A stretch of DNA of 64,000 bases, taken from the NCBI GenBank assembly GCA_016200085.1, contig JACQFL010000036.1, forward strand, positions 62,001 through 126,000, given 5' to 3'. Each line of letters opens with the position of its first letter. Positions within the stretch are counted from its first letter, which is position 1. Position numbers and translations under genes: made by a program. Shown here piece by piece: positions 32,102 through 45,184 of the stretch. The DNA comes from Candidatus Rokuibacteriota bacterium. GTDB taxonomy: Bacteria; Methylomirabilota; Methylomirabilia; Rokubacteriales; CSP1-6. Below the pieces are notes generated by a model. That model had not been told where the DNA came from, made no database searches, and was given only the letters and a program-made list of their open reading frames with translations.

Positions 32102-33100
32102 GTGAACCTGCGCCGGCTGCTCCACATCATCGTGCTCCTGGCCGGCGTCATCACCGCCGGCACCGCGGGCTACGTCGCCATCGAGGGCTGGCCCGTGTTC
32201 GACGCGCTGTACATGACGGTGACGACCGTGTCGTCCGTGAGCTACGGCGAGATCCACCCTCTCTCGACGACCGGGCGCGTGTTCACGCTCGGCCTGATCG
32301 TCGTCGGCCTCGGCACGGTGCTCTACGGGCTCAGCGCGATCACGGCGTTCTGGGTCGAGGGCGACCTGTCACACATGTGGGAGAGGCGAAAGATGGCGCG
32401 ACGGATCGCGGACCTCCACGGCCACATCATCGTGTGCGGGGGCGGCGACACCGGCCGCCACATCCTCCGCGAGCTGCTGGAGACCCGCACGGCGTTCGTC
32501 TGCGTCGAGCGGGACCCGGGGCAAGAGCCCGCGCTCCAGAAGCTCGGCGAGGACGTGACCTACATCATCGGCGACGCCACCGACGCCGACGTGCTGCGCG
32601 CGGCGGGCATCGGGCGGGCCCGGGGCCTCATCAGCTCGATGCCCTCCGACAAGGACAACCTCTTCGCCATCCTCACCGCCCGCGAGCTCAACCCCGGCCT
32701 CCGCATCGTCTCGCGCGTGCTCGCCGACGACACCCGCAGTCGCCTGCTGCGCGCGGGCGCGGACGCCGTGGTCTTCAACAAGAACATCGGCGCGCTGCGG
32801 CTGGCCTCGGAGCTGCTTCGCCCGCACGTCGTCGGGGTGCTCGACGCGATGCTGCGCGAGACCACCGCGGTCCGGGTGGAAGAGATCCTGGTGGGCGCCG
32901 GCGCGGCGGGTCTGGCGCTCGGGGGCCTCAAGCTGCAGGAGCGGACCGGCGTCGTGGTCTTCGCGTTCCGCGAGCGCGACACCGGGCGCTATGGCTTCAA
33001 TCCCGCGCCGGACCGCGTGCTCCACGAGGGCGACGTGCTCATCGCCTGCGCCGATCCCGACCAGCTGACGGCCGCCCGCGCAGTGGCCCGGGACGGCTGA
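32102..33100 (+). CDS. Two-TM potassium channel protein with TrkA-N/TrkA-C (RCK) domains
   Basis: Pore TVTTVSSVSYGEIHPLSTTGRVF; HIIVCGGGDTGRHILREL RCK motif. Confidence 0.88.
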   Translation: MNLRRLLHIIVLLAGVITAGTAGYVAIEGWPVFDALYMTVTTVSSVSYGEIHPLSTTGRVFTLGLIVVGLGTVLYGLSAITAFWVEGDLSHMWERRKMARRIADLHGHIIVCGGGDTGRHILRELLETRTAFVCVERDPGQEPALQKLGEDVTYIIGDATDADVLRAAGIGRARGLISSMPSDKDNLFAILTARELNPGLRIVSRVLADDTRSRLLRAGADAVVFNKNIGALRLASELLRPHVVGVLDAMLRETTAVRVEEILVGAGAAGLALGGLKLQERTGVVVFAFRERDTGRYGFNPAPDRVLHEGDVLIACADPDQLTAARAVARDG

Positions 33101-33141
33101 CCGCGCGCGGCCCCCCAGGAGGGCCGCCGCTCCCCCGGCCT

Positions 33142-33372
33142 CTACCGTGCCGGCGTCGCGGTCCCGCGCTCGAATTCCATGAGGCGACCGTGCAGGGTCG
33201 CGGTGGCCGCCTGGTACCGTCGCAGCACTTCCGCGCGGCGGCCGTCGAAGCGGGTCCGCTCGAGCGCGACGCCGATCACCAGCCCCATCACCACCAGGTA
33301 GAGTCCGAGCAGGCCGGCGCCGAGCGCGATCCGCCACGCGCGCCGCGGCCGCGCCGTCCGCGTGGCGATCAT
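33142..33372 (-). CDS. Small single-TM protein, hypothetical
   Basis: RIALGAGLLGLYLVVMGLVIGVAL; overlaps upstream gene by 4 bp. Confidence 0.55.
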   Translation of the reverse strand: MIATRTARPRRAWRIALGAGLLGLYLVVMGLVIGVALERTRFDGRRAEVLRRYQAATATLHGRLMEFERGTATPAR

Positions 33373-33917
33373 CGCGGGCGCCCCTCCACTCGCGCCAGGG
33401 CGGCATCGTCCCGGCCCCGGTTGAATGCCGCCACGCGCGCGACCTCGTCGGGGCGCCGCGCGATCTGCCGCGCGATCTTGACGCACTGGAGGACCACGGA
33501 GCCGTCGCCGAGCCGGTCGAACGCCCGGCACGCCCGGAGCACGCCGTCGAGCGATCCGGCCTGCCGCGCCCGGAACATCGCGGTGAGGTACGTCTGACGA
33601 GCCTGTGGCTCCGCCGCGCGCGACGACTTCGATGCCGCACCCACCCGCAGCGTGGCGTCGCCGACCGCGAGCAGCCCCTCCCAGCCGCCGCTCTGCAGCG
33701 CGGCGCCGTACGCCGACGAGACGGCGCGCACGGCGGTCGTGATGTCTCCCGCCGCGATCGCCTCGTCGGCGGCGCGCACGTGCTCCACCCACGACAGGCG
33801 CGCCGGCGCCGCGATCGCCGCGGCTTCGGCCAGCGCGAGGAGCGCCAGCGCGATGGCGACGGCCAGGACGAGGGTGATCAGCCAGCCGTCGATGTGTCGG
33901 ACCAAGGTCTGTTTCAT
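33369..33917 (-). CDS. Hypothetical membrane-anchored helical protein
   Basis: N-terminal TM WLITLVLAVAIALALLALAEAAA; SD and -24/-12 promoter upstream. Confidence 0.6.
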   Translation of the reverse strand: MKQTLVRHIDGWLITLVLAVAIALALLALAEAAAIAAPARLSWVEHVRAADEAIAAGDITTAVRAVSSAYGAALQSGGWEGLLAVGDATLRVGAASKSSRAAEPQARQTYLTAMFRARQAGSLDGVLRACRAFDRLGDGSVVLQCVKIARQIARRPDEVARVAAFNRGRDDAALARVEGRPR

Positions 33918-33944
33918 TGGCTCAGCCCTCCCGCCCCGTGAGTA

Positions 33945-33961
33945 GGCAGGGGCGGTGCCAA
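33945..33961 (-). promoter_or_regulatory. Sigma54-type promoter TTGGCACCGCCCCTGCC
   Basis: GG and GC separated by 10 bp, matches YTGGCAC-N5-TTGC with one -12 mismatch; 28 nt before ATG 33917. Confidence 0.6.
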
Positions 33962-34031
33962 ATGTGCCGGCCAGCAAGATCAACGACTTGCGTGCGGCGC
34001 TCCATCCATCGGGCCTGGTGGTGGTGGTGGA

Positions 34032-34142
34032 TCATCCGAGCGCTTCCGCGAGGCCGAGCACGAGCACCATGAGCCCGAGCATCGCGACGGCCGCGATGAC
34101 GACGACGTCGCACCGGCTGACGATCTCCGTGTACAGCTTCAT
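34032..34142 (-). CDS. 36-aa single-TM micropeptide
   Basis: MKLYTEIVSRCDVVVIAAVAMLGLMVLVLGLAEALG; SD GGAGGA; -24/-12 promoter upstream. Confidence 0.5.
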   Translation of the reverse strand: MKLYTEIVSRCDVVVIAAVAMLGLMVLVLGLAEALG

Positions 34143-34171
34143 GGCTGCGATCCTCCTGCCCGACTCGTCAA

Positions 34172-34188
34172 GGCAGCGACGGTGCCAG
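34172..34188 (-). promoter_or_regulatory. Sigma54-type promoter CTGGCACCGTCGCTGCC
   Basis: 14/16 identical to the 33945-33960 element; correct GG-N10-GC spacing. Confidence 0.62.
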
Positions 34189-34291
34189 ACGACGATCGTC
34201 ACGAAAACGATCACTTGAGGCTCGAGCGCTCTGGTGGATGCGCCTGGTGGTGGTGGATTCCTGAGCGGTGGCGGCAGTAAGATACGCGCGG

Positions 34292-38338
<4,047 letters not shown>

Positions 38339-38347
<9 letters not shown>

Positions 38348-40971: not shown

Positions 40972-41073
40972 GTCGTGGCGCTCCCTCGCCGCTGCGACCT
41001 GCGCCGGAATCTAGGCGTCGCGCTCGGGGTTGTCAAGGAGCACGGGGCGTCACCACCAGGAGCGCGAGGCGTC

Positions 41074-41090
41074 CTGGTACGCCGCTTGCC
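41074..41090 (+). promoter_or_regulatory. Sigma54-like promoter CTGGTACGCCGCTTGCC
   Basis: GG-N10-GC spacing, TTGC intact, one mismatch in -24; upstream of the second giant regulator. Confidence 0.45.
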
Positions 41091-41167
41091 TTCTTGGTGG
41101 CGCGGCGCCGGCGGCCGGTGGAACGCCGGCCGGCGCCGGAGCGGGAGGACGGAATATCAGCACGTTA

Positions 41168-44100
41168 GTGACCGGGCCGCAACGGATCGATGGTGGTGGT
41201 GGTGGAGGCGCCGTGGCGGTGCTCGCCGATCGCCGTCGCGCGCGGAGCACCTCGCAAGCCCTCGACCTCCTGGTCGGCGAGAGCCGTGCCATCGTGGCGG
41301 TCAAGGAGAAGATCGCGCGGCTGTTCCCGCACCACGCCGTGCCGCGTCGTCCGCCGCCGGTGCTCATCACCGGCGAGACCGGAACCGGCAAGGGCCTGCT
41401 CGCGCGGGTGATCCACGCCGTGGGGGCGCGCGCCGAGGGGCCGTTCGTCGACGTCAACTGCGCCGCCATCCCCGAGACCCTCCTCGAGGCCGAGCTGTTC
41501 GGCTTCGAGCGCGGGGCGTTCACCGACGCGCGCCAGGGCAAGCCCGGGCTCTTCCAGGCCGCGCACCGTGGCGCCATCTTCCTCGACGAGATCGGCCTGC
41601 TGCCGGAAGCGCTGCAGTCCAAGCTGCTGACCGTGCTCGAGGAGCGCACGGTGCGCCGGCTCGGCGCGACGCGCAGCGAGCCCGTCGACGTGATGGTTCT
41701 GAGCGCGACCAACGAGGACCTCGCCGCCGCGGTGCGGGCGCGCCGCTTTCGCGCCGACCTCTACCATCGCCTGGCCGTCCTCGCCATCGAGCTGCCGGCG
41801 CTGCGCGAGCGCGACGGCGACGTCCTGCTCCTCGCCGACCGCTTTCTCGCCGGGGTGTGCGCCGACTACGGTCTGTCGCCGAAGTCGCTCGGTCCCGCCG
41901 CGCGCGCCGCGCTCGCGGTCCACGCCTGGCCCGGCAACGTGCGGGAGCTGGCCAACGTCATCGAGCGCGCGGCGCTGCTCGCCCAGGACGCCGTCATCGA
42001 CGTCGCCGCGCTGGGGCTCGGCGCCCCGGGCGCGCCGGCCGCCGAGCCGCCACGCCCGGCCGGCGAGCGCACCCTGCGCGAGGCCGTCGGCGACGTCGAG
42101 CGCGAGCGGCTGCTCGCCGCGCTGGAGGACACGGGCTGGAACGTCTCGCGCGCGGCCGTGCGGCTCGGGCTGTCCCGCAACTCCATCCGGTACCGGCTGG
42201 ACAAGTACGGCCTCGCCCGCGGCACGCCGCCGGGGGCACGGCCGCGTGCGGGCGCGGCCAGGCCGCCGGTGGCGCCGCGCGGGGTCGCCGACGAGCCCCG
42301 GGCGCCGCGCGTGCTGCGCTGGCAGCGGCGGCGGCTCGCGCTCCTGCGCGCGGTGGCGGCGGACTCGCCGGCCGCGCGCGGAGCGCTTCCCGTCGAGGTC
42401 CTCGTCGAGAAGGTGCAGAGCTTCGGCGGGCGCGTCCTCGAGCTCGGCCGCTCGGGGCTCATCGGCGTCTTCGGGCTCGACCCGATCGAGGAGGCGCCGC
42501 GGAGCGCGGCGCTGGCGGCGACGGCCATCGTCAAGGCCGCCGAGCACCACCACCGCGCCACCGGGGCGGGGACCGGGGTCCGCGTGGGCCTGCACGCCGA
42601 CCAGCTCCTCGTCGGTCACCTCGACGGCGTGCCGTCGCTCGACAGCGAGTCGCGGCGGGCGGCCATCGAGATCCTCGAGCGCGTGGTGGCGGTGGCGCCC
42701 CCCGACGTCATCGCGCTGAGCTCGGGCGCGGCGGCCCTCGTCGAGCGGCGCTTCGACGTGGTGCCCCTGGCGTCAGGCGAGAACGGCGTCGGCCCGGTCT
42801 ACCGCCTCGCGGGCCGCGAGCGGGCCGGCCTCGACGTCGAGGGGCGGATGACACCGTTCGCGGGACGGCGGCACGAGGCGGCGCTCCTCGACGCCGTCCT
42901 GGCCACGGCGACGACGGGCCGCGGGCAGATCGTGGGGATCGTCGGCGAGGCCGGCATCGGCAAGTCGCGCCTCCTCCACGAGTTCCGGCAGAGCCTCGCC
43001 GGCCGCGGCGTGACGTATCTCGCGGGCCAGTGCGTGTCCTATGGCGCGGCCACGCCGTACCTGCCGGCGCTGGAGATGCTGCGCGACGCCTGCCGGCTGA
43101 CCGAGGCCGACACCCCCGAGTCGACCGCGGAGAAGCTGCGCTGGCACCTCACGGAGATCGGGATGGACGCTCCCGAGGCGGCGCCGTACCTGCTGCGCCT
43201 GCTCGGGGTGCGCGAGGGCACCGAGCGGCTCGCGCCGCTCACGCCCGAAGCGGTGACGACGCGGACGTTCGACGTGCTGAGGGAGATGGCGCTCGCGGGA
43301 AGCCGGCGCCGGCCGCTCGTGCTCGCCGTGGAGAACCTCCACTGGATCGACGCATCGACCGAAGCGTACTTCGGCGCCCTGGCCGACAGCCTCGCCGGCG
43401 CCCCCATCCTCCTGGTGTGCACGTTCCGTCCCGGCCGCCGCCCGGCGTGGATGGACCGCTCGTACGCCACCCAGGTCGCGCTCGCCCCGCTGTCACGCGA
43501 GGACAGTCTCGCCGTCGTGCGGTCCCTGCCCCAGGCGAGCGCGATCCCGCCGGCGCTCGCCGACGTGATCGTCGACAAGGCCGACGGCAACCCGTTCTTC
43601 CTGGAGGAGCTCGGTCGCGTGGTCGCGCAGCGTCCCGGGGCGGAGGAGTCGATCGAGATTCCCGGCACGCTCCAGGACGTGCTCCTGGCGCGCATGGATC
43701 GGCTGGCTCCCGAGACGCGCCGGCTGCTCCAGGTCAGCGCGGTGGTCGGGCGCGAGGGGCCCGTCCGCCTGCTCGAAGCGGTGTGGGACGGCGAGGGCGT
43801 GGCCGCGCCCCTCGGCGAGCTGAAGCGGCTCGAGTTCCTCGACGAGCGGCTCCGGGGCGAGGAGACGAGCTTCGTCTTCCGCCACGTGTTGACCCACGAG
43901 GTGGCGTACGAGAGCCTGCTGCCCGCCGAGCGCGCCCAGCTGCACGCGGCCGTGGGCCGGGTGCTCGAGGAGACGCACGCGGGACGGCTGGACGAGGCGT
44001 CGGGAACGCTCGCGCACCACTTCTCGCGCGCGGGCGACGCGGCCCGCGCGGTCGAGTACCTCCGCCGGTTCGCCGACGGCGCCGCGCGCAGCTACGCCCA

Positions 44101-45184
44101 TGCCGAGGCGGTCACCTCCTTGCGCGCGGCACGGGCCCACGCCGAGCGCCTGCCGGCCGGCCGCGACGCCGTGCTCGCCGACCTCGTGCTGCGGGAGGGC
44201 CGCTCGCTGCATTTCCTGGGACGGTTCGCCGAGAACCGCGAGCTGCTGGCGCAGCACGCCGCGCTCGTGGCGCGGCTCGCCTCGCCCGCGGCGAACGGCC
44301 ACTATCACCTCCTGGCCGGCCTGACGGCGAGCCACCTGGGCGACCCGGAAGCCGCGGCGGAGAGCGCCTCGCTCGCGATCGCGGCCGCGGGCGCGTGCGG
44401 CGATACCCGGACCCTGGGACGCGCGCACGTCCTCGTCGGCGTGGGCACGCTGTGGTCGGGACGGCTGCGCGAGGGCCTCGAGCACTGCCGCGCAGCGACG
44501 GCGGTCCTGGACGCGGCCCAGGACCCGAGCTGGCTCGGCCAGGCGCACTACGTGACCGGCCTCTTGCATTTCATGCGCGGCGAGTTCCCGGAGGCCCTGG
44601 CCGCCGAGGCGGAGGCCGACGCCATCGGCGCCGCCGCGGGCGACCGCCGCCTCCGCACCCACGCCGCCTGGACGACGGGCCTCGTGGAGGTCTACGGCGG
44701 GCGCCCGGCCGAGGGGATTGCGTGCTGTCAGCGTGCCGTCGAGGCCGCGCCGGACTCCTTCAGCGCCGCCGCCGCGGAGAGCTTCCTCGGCTGCGCCCTC
44801 AAGGAGGCCGGGCGCTTCGACGAGGCGATCGAGCGGCTCGAGGCGGCGGCCCGTCGCCTGGAGCGGTTCCGCTTCCGCCAGCAGCAAGGACTGGCCACGG
44901 CCTGGCTCTCCGAAGCGCTGCTCGGCGCCGGCGACGCCGCCCGCGCGGCGAGCGCCGCCGCCCGTGCGGTGGAGATCACGGACGAGGCGCGCTACGCGGC
45001 AGGCGCCGCCGTCGCCCGCCGCGCCGTCGGCCGCGCCGCGCTGGCCCGCGGCGACGCCCCAACGGCGGTGACCGCGCTGCAGGACGCGCTCGCCCGCTTC
45101 CAGTCAATGGAGATGGCGTACGAAGCCGCTCGCACCGAACACGCCCTCACCGAGGCCCTCGTCGCGACGCTGAATCATTCGTGA
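41168..45184 (+). CDS. Second multidomain regulator paralogous to 34292-38347 (start uncertain)
   Basis: GETGTGKGLLARVIH, GAFTDARQGKPG, WNVSRAAVRLGLSRNSIRYRL HTH, GEAGIGKSRLLHEF, TPR-like C-terminus. Confidence 0.88.
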   Translation: MTGPQRIDGGGGGGAVAVLADRRRARSTSQALDLLVGESRAIVAVKEKIARLFPHHAVPRRPPPVLITGETGTGKGLLARVIHAVGARAEGPFVDVNCAAIPETLLEAELFGFERGAFTDARQGKPGLFQAAHRGAIFLDEIGLLPEALQSKLLTVLEERTVRRLGATRSEPVDVMVLSATNEDLAAAVRARRFRADLYHRLAVLAIELPALRERDGDVLLLADRFLAGVCADYGLSPKSLGPAARAALAVHAWPGNVRELANVIERAALLAQDAVIDVAALGLGAPGAPAAEPPRPAGERTLREAVGDVERERLLAALEDTGWNVSRAAVRLGLSRNSIRYRLDKYGLARGTPPGARPRAGAARPPVAPRGVADEPRAPRVLRWQRRRLALLRAVAADSPAARGALPVEVLVEKVQSFGGRVLELGRSGLIGVFGLDPIEEAPRSAALAATAIVKAAEHHHRATGAGTGVRVGLHADQLLVGHLDGVPSLDSESRRAAIEILERVVAVAPPDVIALSSGAAALVERRFDVVPLASGENGVGPVYRLAGRERAGLDVEGRMTPFAGRRHEAALLDAVLATATTGRGQIVGIVGEAGIGKSRLLHEFRQSLAGRGVTYLAGQCVSYGAATPYLPALEMLRDACRLTEADTPESTAEKLRWHLTEIGMDAPEAAPYLLRLLGVREGTERLAPLTPEAVTTRTFDVLREMALAGSRRRPLVLAVENLHWIDASTEAYFGALADSLAGAPILLVCTFRPGRRPAWMDRSYATQVALAPLSREDSLAVVRSLPQASAIPPALADVIVDKADGNPFFLEELGRVVAQRPGAEESIEIPGTLQDVLLARMDRLAPETRRLLQVSAVVGREGPVRLLEAVWDGEGVAAPLGELKRLEFLDERLRGEETSFVFRHVLTHEVAYESLLPAERAQLHAAVGRVLEETHAGRLDEASGTLAHHFSRAGDAARAVEYLRRFADGAARSYAHAEAVTSLRAARAHAERLPAGRDAVLADLVLREGRSLHFLGRFAENRELLAQHAALVARLASPAANGHYHLLAGLTASHLGDPEAAAESASLAIAAAGACGDTRTLGRAHVLVGVGTLWSGRLREGLEHCRAATAVLDAAQDPSWLGQAHYVTGLLHFMRGEFPEALAAEAEADAIGAAAGDRRLRTHAAWTTGLVEVYGGRPAEGIACCQRAVEAAPDSFSAAAAESFLGCALKEAGRFDEAIERLEAAARRLERFRFRQQQGLATAWLSEALLGAGDAARAASAAARAVEITDEARYAAGAAVARRAVGRAALARGDAPTAVTALQDALARFQSMEMAYEAARTEHALTEALVATLNHS

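Follow-up and report, generated by a model that had tools for sequence, protein, structure and literature searches.

A predicted sigma54-dependent membrane-protein operon of Rokubacteria, divergent from a giant activator gene

The locus described here raises a simple question: are two near-identical -24/-12 sequences, lying next to a giant sigma54 activator gene and before genes for small membrane proteins, real sigma54 promoters, and which activator would drive them? The genome (3.57 Mb in 57 contigs) has a gene for RpoN and genes for 11 strong sigma54 activators. It was compared with relatives that are Candidatus Rokubacteria according to the names of the matching records; "the window" below means the whole 64-kb stretch of DNA analysed. 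We consider it highly probable, judging from these sequence comparisons, that the locus is a sigma54-dependent, activator-controlled membrane-protein operon, with the giant activator, EBP1, acting via upstream CCACC boxes. Comparison shows that the layout, two predicted promoters with a box and an IHF-like element, divergent from the gene of a giant enhancer-binding protein (EBP), is conserved in Rokubacteria.

Two -24/-12 sites lie before membrane-protein genes

Both sigma54 sequences reported in the initial annotation were found at their minus-strand places, and TGGCACCGCCCCTGCC and TGGCACCGTCGCTGCC indeed share 14 of 16 positions and keep the GG-N10-GC spacing exactly. The core of P1 (TTGGCACCGCCCCTGC; 33946..33961, minus strand) has a predicted transcription start site (TSS) at about 33934, from the -12 spacing, and that of P2 (CTGGCACCGTCGCTGC; 34173..34188, minus strand) at about 34161; the distance between P1 and P2 is 227 bp. 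The supposed fit to YTGGCAC-N5-TTGC held for TGGCAC and for the spacing but not for TTGC, since both sites have CTGC and score 10/11 each; the invariant GC of the -12 element is kept, and most relatives have TTGC. Each site had been placed about 30 nt before a Shine-Dalgarno sequence (SD) and ATG, which agrees with gaps to the ATG of 27 and 29 nt and a good SD at each. Likewise confirmed were three open reading frames (ORFs), 36, 182 and 76 aa long, and the divergent 1359-aa sigma54-activator gene.

Might these sites be chance matches in GC-rich DNA, copied along with their flanks? The window holds three sites at 10/11 against 1.1 expected by chance, a count that is not clearly above chance and by itself is not convincing. 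Moreover, the upstream regions of P1 and P2 align with each other, so the two sites are not independent events. Both observations favor chance. The genome-wide -24/-12 scan proposed in the initial annotation gave six matches to YTGGCACN5YTGC in 3.57 Mb, two of them at this locus. A strict sigma54 site at L001:1501-1516 (G000:C2:54053) lies before a small transmembrane (TM) protein gene, divergent from ABC permease genes and without a CCACC box.

The promoter sites are conserved in relatives

The 182-aa family is present in 28 of 60 relatives, often with copies in tandem, whereas none of 21 genomes from outside the order has it. We scanned the 300 bp upstream of first 182-family genes, counting as a site any match of at least 9/11. 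A -24/-12 site was found in 29 of 42 cases, against 0/42 in antisense and 1.7 in shuffled sequence; second tandem copies had it in 0/15. Absence of the motifs from related genomes had been named as grounds for giving up the promoters, and many genera of Rokubacteria turned out to keep the site ahead of the homologous operons. This conservation, set against the antisense and shuffled counts, settles the promoter observation and refutes chance as a general explanation. The conservation is also strand- and position-specific among relatives with no more than 33-44% protein identity, and the spacing of the three elements (site, box and IHF-like element) is rigid. That chance matches were merely copied with their flanks is, in our judgement, extremely improbable.

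The giant activator family was found in 25 of 60 relatives. At about 50 giant-EBP genes, a divergent site was present at 26 and a same-strand site at three, the divergent sites mostly lying 123-141 nt away from the giant-EBP start. P2 (34188), about 123 nt from the start of EBP1, lies at this conserved distance and would thus hold the ancestral position, while P1 (33961) looks like a duplicate, that is, an extra copy. The two promoters had been described as a pair; both sites stand, but not on an equal footing. Co-occurrence of the 182 family and the giant EBP over the 60 genomes (20/8/5/27, p 1e-5) was given little weight, because it reached only p 0.02-0.05 inside family or order.

A CCACC box and an IHF-like element accompany the promoters

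Two shared elements upstream of the -24 were missed in the first reading, a CCACC box and an IHF-like element. In most loci, P1 and P2 included, a CCACC(ACC)n or TTGACCACC box starts about 61-69 nt before the -24. The putative activator binding sites are CCACCACCACCACCAG for P1 (34015..34030, minus strand) and CCACCACCACCAG for P2 (34244..34256, minus strand), the latter immediately upstream of the promoter of the activator gene. CCACCACCACCAG occurs three times in the genome, twice at this locus; for the third occurrence (C44), no -24/-12 match was found in the downstream sequence examined. The composite pattern of box plus promoter gave three matches in the own genome, every one before a 182-family gene, and 13 matches divergent from a giant EBP in relatives. 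One second 182-family gene of the same genome (L103, G000:C17:109075-109488), with a stop codon within the match, has a box-plus-promoter match upstream. Box-bearing sigma54 promoters in relatives (L145-L164) precede varied genes, among them, by eye, secreted, lipoprotein-like and MucR-like ones. As the targets of box promoters adjoining giant EBPs vary, the circuit would not be limited to the 182-aa family.

The IHF-like element of P1 (CAAGTCGTTGATC; 33978..33990, minus strand) matches YAANNNNTTGATW at 8/9 and that of P2 (CAAGTGATCGTTT; 34205..34217, minus strand) at 7/9. At a threshold of at least 7/9, the YAANNNNTTGATW element was found in 26 of 49 cases against 4.6 in shuffled sequence, and 22 of these 26 are placed 28-29 nt before the -24. 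The genome has three HU/IHF-type genes, and we infer that IHF itself may bind the element.

The divergent giant activator is the leading candidate regulator

EBP1 is encoded at 34292..38347 on the plus strand (1359 aa by the longest start; the start is probably ATG 34292). Its domains are an AAA+ domain with a GAFTDA loop, a Fis-type HTH, a cyclase-like region, an AAA_16 STAND-type ATPase and TPR; Sigma54_activat, the AAA lid and the Fis-type HTH score above cut-off, and a Walker A motif is present. The activator loop is GAFTDA, versus the GAFTGA consensus, in 15 of 15 EBPs examined. PADLOC matches of EBP1 to RtcR/PspF were set aside, being due to the AAA+ domain and HTH only.

The idea that the giant divergent activator is the candidate regulator gains support from the distribution of the box and from its covariation with the recognition helix. 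All 19 box-bearing loci are in EBP-positive genomes and all six loci of EBP-negative genomes lack the box (p 0.001, from a table compiled by hand and without phylogeny correction, the related genomes not being independent). Full-length alignment of the EBPs revealed that TTGACC-type boxes adjoin EBPs with an RNTLRAR recognition helix (nine loci) and other ACCACC boxes adjoin EBPs with an RNT-RYR helix (ten loci), though this covariation may perhaps reflect a single clade split.

The sigma54 promoters could nevertheless be real and be run by another of the 11 strong activators of the genome, with the giant activator merely a neighbour. In line with this, EBP2 has the same helix type, and the site persists before 182-family genes where the giant EBP is lacking: 8 of the 28 genomes with the 182 family have no giant EBP match, and several of these keep the sigma54 site without a box; in such genomes some other activator must be at work. 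On the other hand, such a reading fits poorly with the divergent site seen at about half of the giant-EBP genes (26 of about 50), with a box confined to EBP-positive genomes and with the pairing of box type and helix type, and we find it rather improbable for P1 and P2. At L056 an EBP is adjacent, yet the box is absent.

EBP2 is a second giant EBP (ORF 41030-45184). Upstream of it, CTGGTACGCCGCTTGC (10/11; 41074-41089, plus strand) and GGTGGTGGTGGTGG (41192-41208) possibly serve its own or cross regulation; CTGGTACGCCGCTTGC at 41074 was rejected as the EBP2 promoter, being without a box at the right distance.

EBP1, our preferred regulator, may also act on its own gene. A conserved -10-like hexamer of its basal promoter, TAAGAT, lies at 34278..34283 on the plus strand, and a TAAGAT-like hexamer was found 12-23 nt before 32 of 41 EBP gene starts, close to the box; a sigma70 consensus scan of 32950-34400 gave no match. 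The closeness of hexamer and box suggests autoregulation, as described for PspF: since the EBP1 promoter adjoins the box, bound EBP1 probably limits its own synthesis.

The operon is predicted to encode small membrane proteins

The 182-aa protein (33369..33917, minus strand) is predicted to consist of an N-terminal TM helix and a TPR-like domain; its model has a long N-terminal helix and seven further helices (pLDDT 93.6). In structure comparison it matched TPR domains and designed helical repeats, for the most part weakly (TM-score to the query mostly 0.3-0.48). No family for this protein was found in Pfam, NCBIfam, PHROGs or PADLOC, and neither a TPR nor any other Pfam match was obtained in 21 members of the family. 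The start of the 76-aa TM protein gene (33142..33372, minus strand) overlaps the stop of the 182-aa gene, and at L097 a segment similar to the 76-aa protein and a 182-family domain form one in-frame fusion. Downstream of the operon lies a convergent K+ channel gene (Ion_trans_2, TrkA_N, TrkA_C; 32102..33100, plus strand), which is convergent also in several relatives (L054, L059, L062, L065) and broken in L066.

The 36-aa ORF (34032..34142, minus strand), with its own SD and ATG, had been taken for a TM micropeptide. A single-TM ORF it is, but its independence as a peptide is doubtful: the TM segment can be aligned to the N-termini of 182-family proteins (best z 5.6, at L059; mean 2.2), and the ORF probably represents a membrane anchor that became detached from this family. 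It may still be a functional micropeptide rather than a remnant, which P2 exists to express; SD, ATG and TM segment are all kept, and the promoter has all three elements. Against this speak the alignment just mentioned and the finding of no separate 36-aa homologue among the relatives' loci examined. We hold a functional micropeptide to be a serious possibility, albeit the less likely one, and it is compatible with our favored explanation of the locus.

Proposed circuit and its significance

In the activator-controlled operon that we favor, EBP1 would bind the CCACC boxes, IHF or HU would bend the DNA, and at both promoters the AAA+ ring of EBP1 would open the RpoN-polymerase complex. The signal would be received by its C-terminal cyclase-like/STAND/TPR part. 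The products, namely the TPR-like protein with its TM anchor and the two small TM proteins, would work in or at the inner membrane and possibly feed back on EBP1. By analogy, one may speculate, though we think it unlikely, that Rokubacteria have here an envelope-response circuit of an undescribed kind: the TM-anchored TPR-like protein, itself a target of the STAND/TPR-tailed activator, would retain that activator at the membrane or let it go, and the 36- and 76-aa anchors would tune the contact, in a PspA/PspF-like manner with unrelated parts.

The locus offers a concrete, testable regulon for a mostly uncultured lineage with little-described sigma54 control; the main text of a 2025 sigma54 regulon survey (PMC12316311) mentions neither Rokubacteria nor Methylomirabilota. 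It also brings to light a type of sigma54 activator with a putative C-terminal sensor, along with a family of membrane proteins that no Pfam model covers, and specificity could readily be tested on box and recognition helix, which vary together.

Comparison with known systems

The closest parallel is pspF/pspA of E. coli, a system described as one in which IHF aids binding, PspA exerts negative control and pspF is negatively autoregulated (PMC3709507). In both, the activator has N-terminal AAA+ and HTH domains and no N-terminal receiver, and it adjoins a sigma54 operon of membrane-associated proteins, with an upstream activating sequence (UAS) and an IHF site between (here a putative UAS and an IHF-like element by sequence); the UAS region doubles at the activator's own promoter. 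However, EBP1 has an extra cyclase-like/STAND/TPR tail of about 1000 residues, and the products belong to a different family. A search of the genome for the PspA/IM30 family found none, while positive controls were detected. The predicted circuit is thus one that would work like Psp and is not a Psp member, PspA being absent.

With bacterial enhancer-binding proteins in general, EBP1 shares Sigma54_activat, the AAA lid and the Fis-type HTH, but its loop reads GAFTDA and its C-terminal module carries AAA_16 and TPR. The literature searched yielded no account of such an architecture, which is not proof of its being undescribed. Residues 400-1307 of EBP1 align with the TOMM system kinase/cyclase fusion protein (TIGR03903; E 3e-80), but at 270 versus 706 bits, far under the curated cut-off, and EBP1 lacks the kinase and is fused to a sigma54 activator. 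Finally, although its family lacks Pfam TPR matches, the 182-aa protein resembles TPR proteins in that its predicted fold is a helical array, with TPR domains among the weak structure matches.
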